In this document: piece after piece, positions 4,192 to 30,794 of the stretch
How the letters are laid out: each line of letters opens with the position of its first letter
How positions within the stretch are numbered: the first letter of the stretch is position 1
DNA from: Candidatus Moraniibacteriota bacterium
GTDB lineage: Bacteria > Patescibacteriota > Minisyncoccia > Moranbacterales > UBA1568
Assembly: GCA_017983435.1 (NCBI GenBank)
Contig: JAGOBM010000003.1
Span: forward strand, 70,124 to 109,230
Length of the DNA stretch: 39,107 nucleotides
Direction of reading: 5' to 3'
Made by a program: the position numbers and the translations under genes
The notes under the pieces: model-generated
Told to the model about the DNA's origin: nothing
The model's database searches: none
Seen by the model: the letters and a program-made list of their open reading frames with translations, nothing else

Positions 4192-4248
4192 ATATTTCGA
4201 TAGGATTCCCGGGCCACGAAAGCAGATTTTCCTTACTAACTGATGACT

Positions 4249-4335
4249 CTTTCCAAGGGTGCAAGGCAATCCTTTCCTCGCTATCGCCTCGGAAGTCTCG
4301 GGCATCAGAAAAAATTACCTTGCACCCTCGGAAAG
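4249..4335 (-). repeat. Conserved-loop hairpin, copy A
   Basis: Arms 4249-4270 and 4314-4335 are inverted copies over 22 bp with two differences. Both differences are A-C on the plus strand but G-U on the minus strand. The interval holds, on the minus strand, the shared 17-nt motif (4297-4281) flanked by T-rich and A-rich ends that extend the stem. Weaker complementarity continues outward to about 4216 and 4362. It lies 3' of the 705-aa protein gene in the same orientation; no ordinary T-tailed terminator was seen there. Translation of this repeat creates the false N-terminal extension of TatC. Confidence 0.85.
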
Positions 4336-4404
4336 AAATTCTATCTCTGAATTTACTTTCGTAGCCTGGAGAGACAACTCAATGTTGTTTGTACGCTCTT
4401 CAAT

Positions 4405-21108: not shown

Positions 21109-22440
21109 TCACTCGATCACTTCGATCGCCCCGCGATACATGCCCATAGAGCAGCTGAATGGGATTTCTCCCGTCTCCGTCGCGGTGAACTCAATCACAT
21201 TTTCCCCCGGCTTGAGAGCTTCACGTACCCCGATCTTGGGAGCGACAAAGCTGACCGCACAGGTATACGAATCCTCGGAATCGATAATCCAGCGCACCCG
21301 CTCGCCCTTATGTACGACGAACTTCTCCGGCGAATAGCCGGTAGCGGTCTGCTTCATATGGATAGTCCGCACCGGAGCCTCGGCATCGACCGCCACGGCC
21401 GCATCGCTCTGTGTCCCGAGCGAGAAGATATTGTTTGCATTGACGATATTCCACAGCGCGAGTCCGACCACGATCAGACCGGCAAAACGGAAGAAGTAGC
21501 GGCCGAGACTCCCTCGCGCTACCGAAGCAGCACTCCCGATCAACAAGAGCCCCGGGGTCGTCCCCAGAGCAAATGCCCCCAGCAAGACCGCACCGAGCCA
21601 CGCACTCCCCTGGCTCACCGCGTAGAGCTGCACCGCCTGCGTGAATCCGCACGGCAAGAAGAACGTGAGCGCACCAAGCAGCGCCGTCCGCCGCCGGCTG
21701 TACGCCCGAGAAACATGCGTTTCAATACCGAGCGCCCGGGCCAGACCCTTCGGCAGCGAAAGTCTCCACCCCGAAAGACGCGGTGAAATCTCGAGCAATT
21801 GCAATCCGACGAGCAACATGACGAGAGCGACAAGGAGCGTCAGCGAAGCCAGTACGGATGAAGACAGCGTCAGCCAAGAGCCCGCATACCCGATCAAGGC
21901 GCCGAGCAGAGCGAAGCCGACGATACGGCCGAGATTGAAATACATCTGCGGTTCCAATCGCCGACGTGACGAGGCTTCCGGATGCCGCTCGGCGAATCGG
22001 GCCGCGATACCGAGCACCAACCCGCCGATCAGCGCCATGCACGTCGACACTCCAGCAGCCAGACCGAGCAAGAGCACCGAGCCGATGCTTCCCAAATCGT
22101 CCACCGTGCCAAATGAGATACTCGTAAATCCGCTAGCCGCGAGTACGAGCCCGAGTACGACTATCCCGCCCAAAGCGAAAAGCGTTTCTACGTAGATACG
22201 GATATCTGTCGAAAACCATGGCAACCGTACCTCTCCATCGCCACGCGCGTACCCGAGCGATCGGATTGTCGCAGAGAGCTGCTCATCATCCAACGATCCC
22301 TGATGCTCGATGACGATACGGCCAGTCCTATGATTCGCTTCGACCCGGCTGACTCCGGAGAGCTTCTTCATCTCACTTTCTGTCCGGAGTTCGCAGGAGC
22401 GGCAGTGCATCCCGCGCAAAAATATCTCTTGTTTATCCAT
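21109..22440 (-). CDS. HMA - TauE/DsbD-like membrane - cupredoxin fusion
   Basis: 443 aa from ATG 22440 (MDKQEIFLRGMHCRSCE); the frame opens at 22497 without support. Three parts: a heavy-metal-associated domain (1-65) with the metal-binding pair C13/C16 in GMHCRSC; a six-to-eight-helix domain (80-330) of the sulfite exporter TauE/SafE or DsbD transmembrane type, with Cys-containing STCMALIGG and FFLPCGFTQAVQLYAV; and an outward cupredoxin-like domain (350-443) with His in IHMKQTATGYSPEKF and FSCSMGMYRGAIEV near the end. The layout points to copper handling: cytosolic delivery, membrane transfer and an external copper site. The divergent 61-aa CPHC protein may be related. Direction of transport is inferred, not shown. 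Confidence 0.87.
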   Translation of the reverse strand: MDKQEIFLRGMHCRSCELRTESEMKKLSGVSRVEANHRTGRIVIEHQGSLDDEQLSATIRSLGYARGDGEVRLPWFSTDIRIYVETLFALGGIVVLGLVLAASGFTSISFGTVDDLGSIGSVLLLGLAAGVSTCMALIGGLVLGIAARFAERHPEASSRRRLEPQMYFNLGRIVGFALLGALIGYAGSWLTLSSSVLASLTLLVALVMLLVGLQLLEISPRLSGWRLSLPKGLARALGIETHVSRAYSRRRTALLGALTFFLPCGFTQAVQLYAVSQGSAWLGAVLLGAFALGTTPGLLLIGSAASVARGSLGRYFFRFAGLIVVGLALWNIVNANNIFSLGTQSDAAVAVDAEAPVRTIHMKQTATGYSPEKFVVHKGERVRWIIDSEDSYTCAVSFVAPKIGVREALKPGENVIEFTATETGEIPFSCSMGMYRGAIEVIE

Positions 22441-22948: not shown

Positions 22949-23045
22949 GAAACTTTCAGGAGGGTGCGGGGAAGATTTTTCTGATGCCCGAGACTTCCGA
23001 GGCGATAGTGAGGAAAAGTGTTCCCCGCACCCTCCTGAAAGTTTC
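22949..23045 (+). repeat. Conserved-loop hairpin, copy B
   Basis: Arms 22949-22973 and 23021-23045 are perfect 25-bp inverted copies. The 47-nt interval holds the shared 17-nt motif at 22992-23008, here followed by TGAG instead of CGAG. Further pairing inside the arms includes a T-G wobble in this orientation. It lies 3' of the 61-aa gene, same strand, between two terminators. The gap 22819-23151 holds only these elements. Confidence 0.88.
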
Positions 23046-23151: not shown

Positions 23152-23796
23152 TTATGAATCCGTCTCGGGTCGGACTTTGTGATAATAGTAATCAACATCT
23201 TGAATCCACTTCTCGACCCCGGCCGCATTGTGCCCCGCACAGGTCCAGCCACATTTCCACACGACGATCTCACGCGGCGTGTTGAGCTCATGCTCGACCA
23301 CCAGCGTATCAATACGGTGTCCGACGGTCCTGATCGCCTCCTTCGGCGAATCGAAGCAGGTATAGCCATCCCAGGTCACACGGTCTCCGCCCCCCCGATA
23401 GCCCCAATAGTTGAAACAATCCTGACCATCTTTCTTCGGCACACGTTTGCCCCAGTTACTCTCTTTCTTCGCGATACCCACGATGAAAGCCGCTGTTTCC
23501 TCACGCTGCTCCGATATATAGGGTGTCATACGCTCGATCGGAAAACCTTTGACCAGCGTCTTGACCCGCCGTTCCAGGACAGCGTTACCTGTTTTGGCCT
23601 TGGGTGGCTCAATGGCTGCGTACTGATCCGTTATCGACTGTGCATTCTGCATCAGGAGCCATGACAGCCCGAGACCGAGCGACAGCACGAGCGCGAAAAA
23701 GAAATCCATCGACACGACGGTTGACTCGCTCAATATATCGGTCTTTGGGACAGGCGACTTGTTTCCGATTGTATTTGTGTTGTTTTTTGGCTTCAT
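23152..23796 (-). CDS. Membrane-anchored lysozyme/glucosaminidase-like protein
   Basis: 214 aa. Cytoplasmic N-terminus of about 28 aa, one membrane helix (SMDFFFALVLSLGLGLSWLL), then an outer lysozyme-like domain (75-205): RMTPYISEQREETAAFIVGI leads to KKESNWGKRVPKKDGQDC, where the Glu is the likely catalytic acid; then FNYWGYRGGG, TWDGYTCFDSPKEAIRTVGH and a C-terminal WIQDVDYYYHKV. Cys residues at QDC, YTC, KCGWTC could form disulfides. This fits the SLT/glucosaminidase superfamily, cutting peptidoglycan near the membrane. Its promoter is followed by a leader hairpin just upstream of the start. Confidence 0.8.
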   Translation of the reverse strand: MKPKNNTNTIGNKSPVPKTDILSESTVVSMDFFFALVLSLGLGLSWLLMQNAQSITDQYAAIEPPKAKTGNAVLERRVKTLVKGFPIERMTPYISEQREETAAFIVGIAKKESNWGKRVPKKDGQDCFNYWGYRGGGDRVTWDGYTCFDSPKEAIRTVGHRIDTLVVEHELNTPREIVVWKCGWTCAGHNAAGVEKWIQDVDYYYHKVRPETDS

Positions 23797-23969: not shown

Positions 23970-24059
23970 ACTGATCAGTCTGCAAAAGAGGTTTTTCCTG
24001 CTGCCCGAGACTTCCGAGGCGATAGCGAGGGGAAAATCTACTTTTGCAGACTGATCAGT
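23970..24059 (+). repeat. Conserved-loop hairpin, copy C
   Basis: Arms 23970-23988 and 24041-24059 are perfect 19-bp inverted copies; weaker pairing, including a G-U in this orientation, continues inward. The shared 17-nt motif lies at 24009-24025. Just outside, near 24065-24085, AAGGCGATAGTGAAGC looks like a decayed extra piece of the motif. The gap 23797-24124 otherwise holds only the promoter and leader of the lysozyme-like gene. Unlike the other copies it is antisense to both neighbours. Confidence 0.85.
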
Positions 24060-26108: not shown

Positions 26109-27350
26109 ATGTTCCGTTTCATCCTCCTCGGCCTGCAGTCAGGCAATCTTACCACCCGTTACGCAAAGGCACACGAAGGCTGGTTTTTCTGGGCTCTCAT
26201 GAGCTCGCTTATCTACCTCGGACTTTGCGTCTTCGGACTGTACTGCAATATCGCCGGCGGACAATGGATCAACTTCATTTTCGCCGGACTCTTCCAACTC
26301 GCGGCTTTCCTGTTGCTCTTCATGCCTGGCAATGTCATAGCAGTCGCAATTATCGGGTTCCTCCTCGGCCAACCGGGCAATACCCCTGGTCTGTCGATCA
26401 GCGATGGTGTCAACCAATCGCAAGACATACTGAAGAAGTTTGGAGGTATCGCTGGTTCGATCATTTTCTATGGATCGATTCCGTTTGTCGCGATGGGCAT
26501 CTTCTCGTTCAAGGGTCATGCTTTTGCGGCCATCATTATGCTGGCACTCGCGGCCCCGGTCGCAATAGCTGCTAGTCGAATCTTCAAGGAACCCAAGCTC
26601 TTCATCACTCTGGTCTACTGGGTTGAAGTCATCGTCCTTATAGCCGCCCTCGGACTTACGTTCAAGGAAACCTACTGGACATATGCCGCTGATGAGCGCG
26701 ACCAAATCGTCCGCGAAATCGACGCAACCTATGAAGGACAGATCGCTGAAGCTGACAAGCAGATTCTCAAAGGGATTCTCAAGAAAGCGGAGAAAGGTAT
26801 ACCGCTCTCCAAGAATGACTTCCGGATACTTGGGAAATACCAAGAACGACTCAATGAAAAGTCACCTCAAAGTATTGGGAAACAGATCGGTGAGACAGCC
26901 GTAGAAATCGCTAAGAGCGGAGTATCACTCGCTGCGAATGGTCTCGACACTGCCAAAGCTGAGACACTCAAGGCCTGGAACGGAGAAGAGCTGACCTACC
27001 AGGTCACGGTCTCCTCCAAGGGCATTCCTGAGGTCGACAAGATCTGCAATCTGTCTATCGGCAACTACAAGGTCTCCGTCAGAGATGTCACCGCTCCCTC
27101 CATTGTCGACGAGAAAGGCGACGACATGGGAGTATTTGATCTCTCGAATACCGGCCGGCCTGGAACGCAGTTTGGACTCACCGTGGGCGGCAAGCGCGTC
27201 GGTGAAACCGTAACCGTCTCAAGCAAAGATAGCTGCCTCACAGTAGCCGTCAGTATGAATGGTCCGACGCGCGCGTTCTTTACGAACGAATCAAAATACA
27301 AATTTGTCGGCGAAGCCACTCCGGCCGCCACCCTCGTGCTGACACGGTAA
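26109..27350 (+). CDS. Polytopic membrane protein with soluble C-terminal half
   Basis: 413 aa from ATG 26109, with AGGA about 7 nt upstream; the same frame is open back to 25743, but that part overlaps the upstream gene out of frame. Hydrophobic helices are visible near 28-50, 58-80, 80-95, 120-140, 145-165 and 175-195. The C-terminal half is soluble: a charged helical hairpin (EIDATYEGQIAEADKQILKG), an amphipathic helix, then a beta-rich domain with two Cys residues (VDKICNLSIGNYKV and SSKDSCLTVAVSM) that may form a disulfide. Function unknown. Second gene of the operon, ending at a strong terminator. Confidence 0.78.
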   Translation: MFRFILLGLQSGNLTTRYAKAHEGWFFWALMSSLIYLGLCVFGLYCNIAGGQWINFIFAGLFQLAAFLLLFMPGNVIAVAIIGFLLGQPGNTPGLSISDGVNQSQDILKKFGGIAGSIIFYGSIPFVAMGIFSFKGHAFAAIIMLALAAPVAIAASRIFKEPKLFITLVYWVEVIVLIAALGLTFKETYWTYAADERDQIVREIDATYEGQIAEADKQILKGILKKAEKGIPLSKNDFRILGKYQERLNEKSPQSIGKQIGETAVEIAKSGVSLAANGLDTAKAETLKAWNGEELTYQVTVSSKGIPEVDKICNLSIGNYKVSVRDVTAPSIVDEKGDDMGVFDLSNTGRPGTQFGLTVGGKRVGETVTVSSKDSCLTVAVSMNGPTRAFFTNESKYKFVGEATPAATLVLTR

Positions 27351-27411: not shown

Positions 27412-27492
27412 CTTTGGGATGCAGAAAAGATTTTCTCTCGCTATCGCCTCGGAAGTCCTGGGGCTAAGAAAAACCTTTTCTACATCCCAAAG
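27412..27492 (-). repeat. Conserved-loop hairpin, copy D
   Basis: Arms 27412-27434 and 27470-27492 are inverted copies over 23 bp with two differences; both are G-U when read on the minus strand and A-C on the plus strand. The shared 17-nt motif lies at 27457-27441 on the minus strand. The loop is the shortest of the four (35 nt) and differs most on the 5' side (GCCCCAG instead of GCCCGA). It lies 3' of the minus-strand pilin-like gene. Confidence 0.85.
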
Positions 27493-27518: not shown

Positions 27519-28250
27519 TTAGAGAAAGAAGATCGATATCTGACGGACGAGAATGAGCGAGGCGAGCGCGAGTGTGAGACCGATGGCCGCGTAGGTCGCC
27601 ATACTCTTGGCGGTCTTAGCCCGACCCTCATCGCCGCCGGAACTCATATAGGCGATACCGCTCACCACCAGCATGATGATGGTCAAGATACCAACAATCG
27701 ACAGGAGGAACTTGAGCACATTGAGCGCGATCTCCACGAGCGTCGGCCCAGCAGCAGTCGTCGAGACACCGAAAATCGTATAGATCTCCTGGAGGAAAGT
27801 CGGTGCGCCGATACCAAGCGCGAGACCGATAAGCGCTGCGGTCATCGCCGCCTTGCCTTTCTTGATATTGCCTTCATCGGCACCGCCCATGATATACATG
27901 AGGGCCCCGATGACAAAGAAGACGAGCGCGAGCGTCACGATGACTCCCTGGAGCCAGACCAAGATACCATTGGTCAGGAAATCTTCCACCGTTGAGAAGC
28001 CAAGCGGGTTCGGGATAATAATATCCGCACTGCTCGTCGTGCTCGTAGCCGTAGTTGTGGCTGTCCGACAACAATATTGCCCAGGTATTGAACACGCAAC
28101 ACTCGACACGACCGTTTCTGTGGTAATCGAACCACACGTTGCTTTGCATACAGCGCCCGCTGCCACGCAATCAGCGTCCGTCGCCATCGCCGAAAAACTC
28201 GGTATTCCCAAGCTACCGATCAAGACCGCCCCCATGAGAAATCGTTTCAT
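27519..28250 (-). CDS. Tandem TrbC/VirB2-like pilin-family protein
   Basis: 243 aa from ATG 28250 (MKRFLMGAVLIGSLGI), giving a signal peptide. A Cys-rich outer segment (CVAAGAVCKATCG, CSIPGQYCC) is followed by two consecutive pilin-like units, each with a hydrophobic helix, a small polar loop and a second helix: VIVTLALVFFVIGALMYIMG with GADEGNIKKGKAAM, then LLSIVGILTIIMLVVSGIAY with GGDEGRAKTAKSM. These match the two-helix TrbC/VirB2 pilin pattern, duplicated. It starts 10 nt after the upstream paralogue. Probably a membrane subunit of a conjugation- or pilus-like apparatus. No VirB4 or VirD4 ATPase is in the window. Confidence 0.78.
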   Translation of the reverse strand: MKRFLMGAVLIGSLGIPSFSAMATDADCVAAGAVCKATCGSITTETVVSSVACSIPGQYCCRTATTTATSTTSSADIIIPNPLGFSTVEDFLTNGILVWLQGVIVTLALVFFVIGALMYIMGGADEGNIKKGKAAMTAALIGLALGIGAPTFLQEIYTIFGVSTTAAGPTLVEIALNVLKFLLSIVGILTIIMLVVSGIAYMSSGGDEGRAKTAKSMATYAAIGLTLALASLILVRQISIFFL

Positions 28251-28260
28251 ACAGTCATCA

Positions 28261-28869
28261 TTAAAAACGAGAATATCCGGCCAAGAGACCATCGACCGCG
28301 TAGATCACCACCATGCCCGACAAGGCGACGAGCACTCCGATGACCGACCACCTCACATGATTCTTCGCTTTCTCCAACGCCTTTGGTTCTCCGAAAGCCA
28401 TAAGATACTGGAAGCCAGCCAGCACGAACGATATGATCGCGATGAGACCGATGATCGAGAGCGACCAGTTCATAAACGTCGCCAGCACACAGGCAACCGG
28501 TCCCGTCGAGCAAATGAATCGTATCGAAAGCGTAAAAAACGCGATCGTCGTGGAGAGTATTGTCGTATCACCTCGTGACAGACCGGTGCTCGTAGGGATG
28601 CAGATGCCATTTTCCAAGGCCGTGCCCATCGGACACGTCGCTGCGCCTCCGCCGGCCGTCGTCGTGGTTGTCGAGCCTCCCGTACAACAGTCACCGGAAT
28701 CACAGCCGGCATCCATATTCACGAAACCGGTGCAGCTCGAGATATTCTGACAGACACCGCTCGGATCGCTCGGACAGGCACCGCCGTTCGGCACCCCGGC
28801 CGAGACGCTGCCTGCCGAAATGAAAAGGCCACACACTACCATGAGGCACGCTGCTGATATGACGCGCAT
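28261..28869 (-). CDS. TrbC/VirB2-like membrane protein with Cys-rich ectodomain
   Basis: 202 aa. Signal peptide (SAACLMVVCGLFISAGSVSA), then a Cys-rich outer segment (GGACPSDPSGVCQNISSC; DAGCDSGDCCTGG) and a Thr-rich linker. A membrane stretch (LSTTIAFFTLSIRFI) and the pilin-type pair follow (WSLSIIGLIAIISFVLAGFQ; FGEPKALEKAKNHVRWSVIG), then a last helix. It shares the K-A-K...IG loop motif with its four neighbours but has GEP where the others have GD. The Cys-rich parts are shared with the next gene, suggesting disulfide-stabilised extracellular domains. It lies after a terminator, so it may start a new transcript. Confidence 0.75.
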   Translation of the reverse strand: MRVISAACLMVVCGLFISAGSVSAGVPNGGACPSDPSGVCQNISSCTGFVNMDAGCDSGDCCTGGSTTTTTAGGGAATCPMGTALENGICIPTSTGLSRGDTTILSTTIAFFTLSIRFICSTGPVACVLATFMNWSLSIIGLIAIISFVLAGFQYLMAFGEPKALEKAKNHVRWSVIGVLVALSGMVVIYAVDGLLAGYSRF

Positions 28870-28953
28870 ACGATAATCGTATTTAGATTTTTTTATTCTT
28901 GTTGCCAGTCTAGCATATTTTCATACCCGCGCCGAGACAGATCGAAGAAAAAG

Positions 28954-28979
28954 AAAACACCTGTTTGCACAGGTGTTTT
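28954..28979 (-). terminator. Terminator after the main pilin-like gene
   Basis: AAAACACCTG, TTTGCA, CAGGTGTTTT with a T-rich tail on the minus strand, 20 nt after the stop at 28999. Confidence 0.85.
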
Positions 28980-28998
28980 CTGATAACGGCGATCCGGA

Positions 28999-29361
28999 CT
29001 AAAAAGTCGTACTGGAACCGCCCAAAAGATTCTGAACCGCGAGCACCACAACCCAACCGATCAGAGCGACGATGACACCGGTGATGGACCACATCATCTG
29101 CGCCTTCGCTTTCTTCTGCTGACCTTCGTCTCCAGCAGCGGTGAGATACATGATACCCGAAATCACGAAGCCGATAATGGCGATGAATCCGAGAATTCCG
29201 AGCAACCACCGCATGATATTGCCGATGATGTCATAGATACTTCCTGTTGGAAGCGTCCTGGCACCAGACGGAGCTGAGGTCGTCCACTGTGCCAGAGCGG
29301 CGACAGGGGCCACAAGTACCGCGACGGTAGCTGCATAGAACATGTTTTTCATTTTATTCAT
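28999..29361 (-). CDS. TrbC/VirB2-like pilin, probable major subunit
   Basis: 120 aa from ATG 29361, with an exceptionally strong ribosome site (AAGGAGGTGAG, 5-6 nt before the ATG). Signal peptide (MFYAATVAVLVAPVAALA), a short mature N-terminus, helix 1 (WLLGILGFIAIIGFVISGIM), the loop TAAGDEGQQKKAKAQMMW, helix 2 (ITGVIVALIGWVVVLAVQNL) and a short tail. This is the standard VirB2/TrbC pilin layout and size. Its strong translation signal and immediate terminator suggest it is the most abundantly made of the five paralogues, as expected for a filament subunit. The initial residues of the longer frame are rejected. Confidence 0.83.
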   Translation of the reverse strand: MNKMKNMFYAATVAVLVAPVAALAQWTTSAPSGARTLPTGSIYDIIGNIMRWLLGILGFIAIIGFVISGIMYLTAAGDEGQQKKAKAQMMWSITGVIVALIGWVVVLAVQNLLGGSSTTF

Positions 29362-29416
29362 ATTCTCACCTCCTTTCGTTTTAATATTTTTGTTTTTCTC
29401 TTCTCTCTCCAAATGA

Positions 29417-29716
29417 CTAGATGAGTTTGCCGATCTGCCTGACGATGATAAGCGCACCGAGCGCGATCAGGAGACCGATGACACTCGCTCCGGCATAGCG
29501 TTTTGCTTTTTCCGCCTGAGACGCATCGCCACCAGACGCGATATAGAGTACGCCCGAAAGAGCTAACGAAAGTATAGCAATGATACCAACAATGGACAAT
29601 ACGAAATCCAGTACATTGAGCAGGACATCGGCGAGACTCGGTGCATCCGAGATGACACCCGCCCATGCGAGATTCGGCACGCACGCTACAAATGACAGAC
29701 TGAGGATCTTTTTCAT
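29417..29716 (-). CDS. Small TrbC/VirB2-like pilin
   Basis: 99 aa from ATG 29716 (MKKILSLSFVACVPNLAWAG), a typical signal peptide; a start at 29782 would overlap the upstream gene. Two helices: VLLNVLDFVLSIVGIIAILS and VIGLLIALGALIIVRQIGKL, joined by the loop ASGGDASQAEKAKRYAGA. Closest in layout to the second unit of the 243-aa protein (both end RQI...). It lies 19 nt after the fusion gene stop and about 55 nt before the next pilin start, so it is part of one transcript. Confidence 0.8.
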   Translation of the reverse strand: MKKILSLSFVACVPNLAWAGVISDAPSLADVLLNVLDFVLSIVGIIAILSLALSGVLYIASGGDASQAEKAKRYAGASVIGLLIALGALIIVRQIGKLI

Positions 29717-29735
29717 CTCCGCTCTCCGACATGAT

Positions 29736-30794
29736 TTAGCAAGCCGCCATGTTGCAAGCGTACCTCCGAATAGCGCAGGCATTGAATTTCGCCGTCCCCG
29801 GATTGATCGGGCAGCCCCACTTCGGAATCACCGGCCAGCCATCGGACGTACTGCAATCCACACTCTTGCCACTCTGTCCGGCACCGCCATTGTAGATAGC
29901 GGCCGCGAGCGCCTGTCGGGTCGTCGTGGAGCCATACGCTCCGATCATACTCGAGGCGGAACTGAATGCATTCTGCAAAATATTCGTCCCTTGGGTGATA
30001 TTCGTATTCGGATCCAAGAGATTGTGCTTGGGACCCGTGCACGTCGTATTGCCGACGCTCGCCGGCTTGACCTGCATGAGTCCGCAATCACCGGTTGTCC
30101 CAACGGTATTCGGCTTACATCCGGACTCCTGCGTGATGATGGCCTTGATGAAATCTGCTGAAATCCCAGAGCTCCCCGCGGCGGTCGCTATCATACCGTT
30201 CCATGCCGTCGTATCGCAGCGGCTCGGACAGGAAAAACTTCCTCCAGAGCAGATCGTCCCTCCACCTGATAGCGCGGTCTTGAGAGCGGTAGGATCGGTA
30301 CAGGTCGCGCCCACACCAGTCGCCGCTGCACCGCCTGCGGCCGCTCCGCCTGAAGCGGATTGATTCGTGCAAGAAAACGTATATCCATTGGTCGTGTAGA
30401 GTCCGACGATCGGATTCTTGGACGCATCGGTCTCCTGGGCGACCAAGAGCAGGAGCGTATTGACGATCAGCCACGCGCCGAGCATCACCCCCACGCCGAT
30501 CAAGGATGTTTTGATACCGGACTTCGCGTTCTTGATCATCCCTTCATCTCCGGCAGAAACGATATACATGATACCCATCGCCGTGATGACGACGAGCCCG
30601 ATAGCCACCATGACCTGCATTCCCCAATCCATGATGCCCTTGCCCATGATGACGATATGACACAAGGTGCACGGAGTATTGCTCCCCGATGTCCCGCACG
30701 GGACGAAAGCCGCCTCGACCGAAGCCATCGGGAGAGCGACCATCACAAATAGCACGAATGAAAAAAAGAAACGTCTCATGAGACTCGGGACCAT
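29736..30794 (-). CDS. Pilin-like membrane domain fused to lytic transglycosylase
   Basis: 352 aa; ATG 30779 (MRRFFFSFVLFVMVALPM) is an equally good start. Signal peptide, a CxxC-bearing segment (TPCTLCHIV), then the TrbC/VirB2-type pair: GMQVMVAIGLVVITAMGIMY, loop SAGDEGMIKNAKSGIKTS, LIGVGVMLGAWLIVNTLLLL. After a linker with Cys residues comes a soluble lytic transglycosylase domain (about 195-330): SADFIKAIITQESGCKPN holds the catalytic Glu, DCGLMQVKP the GLMQ motif, NITQGTNILQNAF and AAAIYNGGAG the rest. It combines VirB1-like wall opening with a VirB2-like anchor in one chain. It follows the solute-binding lipoprotein gene by 15 nt. Confidence 0.85.
   Translation of the reverse strand: MVPSLMRRFFFSFVLFVMVALPMASVEAAFVPCGTSGSNTPCTLCHIVIMGKGIMDWGMQVMVAIGLVVITAMGIMYIVSAGDEGMIKNAKSGIKTSLIGVGVMLGAWLIVNTLLLLVAQETDASKNPIVGLYTTNGYTFSCTNQSASGGAAAGGAAATGVGATCTDPTALKTALSGGGTICSGGSFSCPSRCDTTAWNGMIATAAGSSGISADFIKAIITQESGCKPNTVGTTGDCGLMQVKPASVGNTTCTGPKHNLLDPNTNITQGTNILQNAFSSASSMIGAYGSTTTRQALAAAIYNGGAGQSGKSVDCSTSDGWPVIPKWGCPINPGTAKFNACAIRRYACNMAAC

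Follow-up and report, generated by a model that had tools for sequence, protein, structure and literature searches.

Dispersed palindromic repeats with strand-biased stem mismatches in a genus of Candidatus Moraniibacteriota

Hairpin copies in the window

The window, meaning the whole 39,107-nucleotide stretch of a Candidatus Moraniibacteriota genome that was analysed here, is approximately 83% coding and contains four copies of a long hairpin, labelled A to D. Copy A (4248-4336) reads on the minus strand, with its 5' arm at 4307-4336, its loop at 4279-4306 and its 3' arm at 4248-4278; its tip is of type Ia (GATGCCCGAGACTTCCGAGGCGATAGCG) and it scores 64.4 bits with the R2 model. It is enclosed by an outer hairpin tier on the same strand, in which the 5' arm CTCTCCAGGCTACGAAAGTA (4354-4373) partners the 3' arm CTGCTTTCGTGGCCCGGGAA (4206-4225), and other members of the family are also nested within an outer tier, giving a layout that resembles that of copy A. 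Copies B and C carry the loop strand on the plus strand: copy B (22949-23045; R2 score 61.4 bits) has arms of 34-35 nt (22949-22982 and 23011-23045) and is antisense to the minus-strand genes at 21109-22371 and 23152-23796, and copy C (23970-24059; R2 score 59.5 bits) has arms of 30-32 nt (23970-23999 and 24028-24059) and is flanked by minus-strand genes. Copy D (27412-27492, minus strand; R2 score 33.8 bits) has a variant cap (TAGCCCCAGGACTTCC...), with its 5' arm at 27467-27492 and its 3' arm at 27412-27438, and is situated between convergent genes at 26109-27350 (plus strand) and 27519-28292 (minus strand). The region 27519-30794 is occupied by a run of related minus-strand ORFs that share a 55-nt repeat, and the one ORF of this run that was compared with a protein family gave a match to type IV secretion pilins (PF18895). 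When the whole window was searched against Rfam, only a tRNA exceeded the gathering score, and a relaxed scan of nine loci returned sub-threshold matches only.

The first-pass annotation had placed copies A and D at these positions, of which the limits given above are a refinement, and had read all of their outer-stem differences as G-U on the strand whose loop reads GACTTCC.... Both points hold: in an arm alignment that scores Watson-Crick pairs only, the outer-stem differences of A and D are all G-U. Across the four copies, the stem mismatches in the loop orientation comprise nine G-U (four in A, one in B, two in C and two in D) and no A-C, alongside one mismatch of another kind and a small number of bulges. 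The G-U bias first noted in the window is real.

Strand bias of stem mismatches across genomes

The loop 18-mer is found with intact arms approximately 34 times in the own genome (G000), and a covariance model built from these copies recovered 61 usable copies from its 794,606 bp; what was read of this genome was the sequence surrounding the copies. Because only Watson-Crick pairs are rewarded, the alignment of the arms cannot favour G-U over A-C. In the 61 copies the mismatches were 121 G-U, 28 A-C and 69 other (binomial p = 6e-15), such that a genome-wide tabulation of wobble against A-C, which the first-pass annotation had proposed, revealed a strong strand bias and not equal counts of the two classes. 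The same bias was seen among 28 copies of three further genomes belonging to the genus (36 G-U to 11 A-C, p = 3e-4), and it persisted when each distinct mismatch context was counted once (142 to 37). Since the copies are related to one another, the cleanest figure is provided by 18 disjoint pairs of most similar copies, in which only recent differences are seen and shared ancestry is removed: here 23 differences were of the Watson-Crick/G-U type, two were Watson-Crick/A-C, six were Watson-Crick/other and 35 were fully compensated double changes. A bias of this size far exceeds what chance would give.

Cap anatomy, covariation and folding energy

Each copy is predicted to form a single long and stable stem-loop, with minimum free energies of approximately -35 to -71 kcal/mol (118-nt pieces, first 34 copies). 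A relaxed loop search revealed that the GACTTCC loop is one among several tips carried on a shared frame. On the 5' side of this frame the long stem ends in UUUUUC and is followed by CU[GA]UGC, two unpaired bases and the 4-6 pairs of the tip helix; the loop, UCCG or UCUG with a closing U-A pair, then leads into the returning strand of the tip helix, CA, GCR[A]GG and AAAAA. The cap can hence be described as a CUGAUGC/GCRAGG internal loop and a covarying tip helix of 4-6 bp, usually with a UCCG/UCUG loop. The typical tip in other species is CCATGTTTCCGAACATG, whilst the own genome contains tip Ia (GAGACTTCCGAGGCGA), whose tip helix contains non-canonical purine pairs, tip Ib (GAGGTGCTTTAAACCGA), which has a different loop, and tip II (TACGCTTCCGAGCGTA), with further tip types also present. 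One tip II copy (G000:C5:37194-37297) differs from its nearest relative (C1:9248) at seven stem pairs, all of them Watson-Crick/G-U and none A-C.

An alignment of 36 copies defined 20 named pairs, with 91% of cells paired and 12 pairs changed on both sides. Double-change cells numbered 112 as compared with 33 in shuffles, and covariation was 0.49 as compared with 0.24; slid controls of the same alignment were all far lower. When folded with RNA parameters the loop strand was more stable than its complement in 52 of the 61 copies (median difference -7.2 kcal/mol, p = 2e-9), and flanking pieces, used as an energy control, displayed no strand bias (p = 0.43). Taken together, the G-U bias, the compensatory changes, the covarying tip helix and the strand-specific folding energy indicate that the fold of the GACTTCC strand is selected; it is strongly supported that the fold of one single strand is under selection, such that G-U is tolerated and A-C is not.

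These data bear on the reading of the copies as DNA-level palindromes that are kept perfect either because replication switches template or because they serve as protein-binding or cruciform sites, with no strand-specific selection. In its favour, adjacent bases can change jointly and 16 of the 35 compensated changes are double transversions, but such palindromes predict no asymmetry between G-U and A-C, against the 121:28 and 23:2 observed, and neither do they predict a covarying tip beside a conserved internal loop. This reading is already disfavoured and is very improbable. The 16 transversion pairs are, however, unexplained by simple G-U stepping, so that replacement of arms en bloc, through recombination or template switching, probably adds to stepwise routes through G-U.

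Stem length is mostly 26-32 bp in the own genome, as against 22-25 bp in the other genomes, and the stem ends are sharp. The letters of the arms are variable, yet many positions hold a purine/pyrimidine bias across copies. Variation in the outer arms raised the possibility that the cap had been inserted into pre-existing terminators; this was considered and rejected, and because arm length is sharply limited and the purine/pyrimidine bias is kept, the arms look homologous, not recruited. In G000 the tip types are combined in a mixed fashion with the arm subfamilies (GCGAAAG and CCAGCCAG), which fits recombination between copies.

Genomic setting and turnover

The family consists of dispersed, non-coding elements of approximately 85-110 bp, with 61 copies, all of them intergenic, in the 0.79-Mb own genome of what is a small bacterium of the parasitic type. 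Genes were called with a simple codon-usage script instead of a full annotation pipeline. Of the copies flanked by co-directional genes, 23 have the loop strand in sense orientation and 20 in antisense; nine further copies lie between convergent genes and nine between divergent ones. The median distance to adjacent gene ends is 83 nt for 3' ends as compared with 133 nt for 5' ends. Copies often neighbour each other without a fixed arrangement; a fixed two-hairpin unit (tip I and tip II approximately 120 bp apart) was rejected, as the relative orientation of neighbours is not fixed. A longer repeat body was likewise rejected, similarity in the flanks being largely attributable to duplications of pilin genes, to neighbouring family hairpins and to a separate structured repeat. 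The latter (AACCACCAACCGACTCACC...GATGGTTCTTT) is approximately 150 nt in length, is predicted to adopt a branched fold of its own and is found just upstream of three tip-Ib/Ic hairpins (L131:1510-1819, G000:C8:39795-40000 and G000:C2:93222-93440). Three paralogous segments of G000 that are 84-92% identical and contain the start of a pilin-like gene (C6:46300-46660, C5:37450-37812 and C1:10409-10682) each lie within approximately 1 kb of a family hairpin.

Comparison of G000 with the related genome G001 at two borders of an orthologous gene (95% protein identity) revealed that upstream of the gene there are two hairpins in G000 (C6:63.6-63.85k) and none in G001, whilst downstream there is one in G001 (C43:~99-200) and none in G000. 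As the presence of copies differs at these borders, positions turn over between species. No fixed terminal motif or target-site duplication was discerned: the feet of the stems differ between copies, and intergenic DNA aligns too poorly between species to reveal target-site duplications. In G002, a single contig (C49; L194:1-2160) carries seven family hairpins in its first 2.1 kb, and in addition a half-decayed copy at approximately 1741-1800 that adjoins an apparent segmental duplication of 1438-1560.

It is in this setting that a host-beneficial role in cis has to be weighed, in which each hairpin would be an RNA element in the untranslated region of the adjacent gene (an RNase III site, an mRNA stabilizer, an attenuator or a terminator). 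The intergenic location of all copies, often near the 3' end of a gene, and a structure that is strongly RNA-like would suit such a role, as would the A-run...T-run found at the stem foot of approximately eight of the 14 tip-II copies, which is like that of a bidirectional terminator. These copies are the exception: T-runs downstream of the loop strand are not enriched relative to upstream, so the family as a whole does not have the U-run that follows the stem of an intrinsic terminator, and neither the near-even split of sense and antisense copies nor the failure of positions to be kept between sister species is what a cis-acting element would lead one to expect. A cis-regulatory role for the family is therefore considered unlikely.

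The family appears to be confined to close relatives. Matches to the cap model were found in four of 131 genomes of the order (66 genera), all four belonging to one genus, and a phylum-wide search in which few candidates were scored per genome returned the own genome only among 380 sampled. An exact degenerate scan of approximately 85,000 species genomes recovered 11 contigs from three MAGs of the same genus; the contigs matched were labelled Patescibacteria and Candidatus Moraniibacteriota, with no viral contigs among them. Within the genomes searched, the family is restricted to one genus of Candidatus Moraniibacteriota.

RNA or single-stranded DNA

The first-pass annotation took the G-U bias as direct support for a folded RNA transcribed in one orientation. 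The part of this claim that concerns the fold stands, as the mismatches, the compensation, the covariation and the folding energies all point to selection on one strand. Transcription in one orientation, in contrast, does not follow from position, since sense and antisense copies are almost equally frequent (23:20), and there is no enrichment of promoter-like sequences, U-runs or terminators on one side of the copies in their flanks. The bias itself fits RNA and single-stranded DNA alike, because G-T is also the mildest DNA mismatch and because the energy bias persists with DNA parameters (56 of 61 copies). The UCCG/UCUG loops lean weakly towards RNA, and the folded single strand would most likely be RNA.

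A derivative of a single-stranded DNA transposon (an IS200/IS605-type MITE, a PATE or a REP-like element), in which the hairpin is read as single-stranded DNA by an HUH (Y1) transposase, would share this preference for G-T over A-C, and is further consistent with the random orientation, the intergenic location, the palindromic form and the presence of a Y1 transposase in the related genome G002. However, the own genome, 91% complete and the richest in copies, gave no match to the Y1 transposase (PF01797); the Y1 loci of G001 and G002 have no family hairpin within the flanks examined, and neither the tetranucleotide at the foot nor the flank adjacent to the stem is conserved. Such an origin is accordingly judged distinctly unlikely. 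A further possibility is that the copies are free-standing, trans-acting small RNAs, each with its own promoter and a cap to which a protein binds, as a strand-specific fold and a conserved cap are found whatever the direction of the neighbouring gene. Against this, no promoter-like enrichment is seen upstream and no terminator downstream, and 182 kb of the own genome yielded practically no match to the arms outside hairpins (two overlapping matches at one site), on which basis the idea of the arms as guides against the genome's own genes was rejected. Trans-acting RNAs are thus an improbable explanation for the family.

Interpretation and significance

The preferred reading, to which we assign a probability of approximately 0.6, is that these small dispersed palindromic repeats, which form a genus-specific family, behave as non-autonomous elements, mobile or selfish, of the RPE/ERIC/MITE-like kind. 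On this reading the folded single strand, most likely as RNA, would be bound via its cap by a putative protein, and selection would favour propagation or persistence of the element and not cis-regulation of its neighbours or a conserved role beside particular genes. It is the random orientation and the turnover of positions that lead us to prefer selection of this kind to a role for neighbouring genes. A bolder version, in which a selfish element, conserved mainly in its cap and with stems that may vary provided that pairing is kept, spreads as a folded RNA or single-stranded DNA hairpin, its tips and arms reassorting, in a host without a recognizable reverse transcriptase or Y1 transposase, is doubtful; a search of the own genome for a reverse transcriptase (RVT_1) found none.

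Knowledge of bacterial palindromic repeats usually comes from their sequence, and arguments for a DNA or an RNA mode of action have been indirect. The present family offers a clean test, in that wobble asymmetry and compensation in recent sister copies reveal selection on one folded strand, and its random orientation to genes sets this selection apart from ordinary cis-regulation. It also indicates that a streamlined Patescibacteria genome can host a recently expanding structured repeat, and the conserved cap is a possible bait for the binding protein.

Comparison with known systems

Searches of the literature on bacterial repeats that is available without subscription returned no description of the family. 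In common with MITE-like repeats of the RPE and ERIC type, it is small, dispersed and multicopy, it forms one long stem-loop, and its positions vary between relatives (at two borders). Rickettsia palindromic elements (RPEs) are noted for in-frame insertion into genes and for 12-bp terminal inverted repeats. They are approximately 100-150 bp in length, form a single long stem-loop and are found in dozens of copies in the reduced genomes of one genus (PMC2229807). Size, long stem-loop, copy number, reduced genome and restriction to one genus are thus common to both, but here all copies are intergenic, the sequence of the arms is nearly free and it is mainly the cap that is conserved, the comparison with RPEs being one of descriptions only.

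For ERIC and NEMIS, an effect on co-transcribed mRNA has been proposed or demonstrated. ERIC, YPAL and NEMIS (Correia) are MITE-like intergenic repeats of 100-200 bp whose transcripts form long stem-loops (PMC2229807, PMC2267715). Their size, shape and dispersal are shared with the present family; unlike these repeats, which are recognized by sequence, its stems vary widely under compensation and its orientation to genes is random. The hairpins of IS200/IS605 are recognized as one strand. REP/BIME and IS200/IS605 elements resemble the family as short intergenic palindromes, but here no Y1/RAYT gene was found in the own genome, there is no tagged foot and the stems are much longer.

Within the Patescibacteria, the TIGR stem arrays of CPR bacteria are repeated RNA hairpins whose loop region holds a small conserved motif (PMC12045711). 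TIGR hairpins are clustered beside a Nop-domain protein and have variable loop spacers, whereas the present hairpins are dispersed, with a variable stem and a conserved loop; indeed, no Nop-domain (PF01798) Tas protein was found in any of the four genomes of the genus, and there is no hairpin array. Mitochondrial double-hairpin and repetitive hairpin-forming elements are described as intergenic hairpin repeats of compact genomes that are presumed to be mobile (PMC2800124); they are organellar, unlike the present family, and the likeness drawn here is one of general description. Among these systems, the hairpins reported here are best read as a new family of small palindromic repeats, which differs from the others in that conservation lies mainly in the cap and the pairing.
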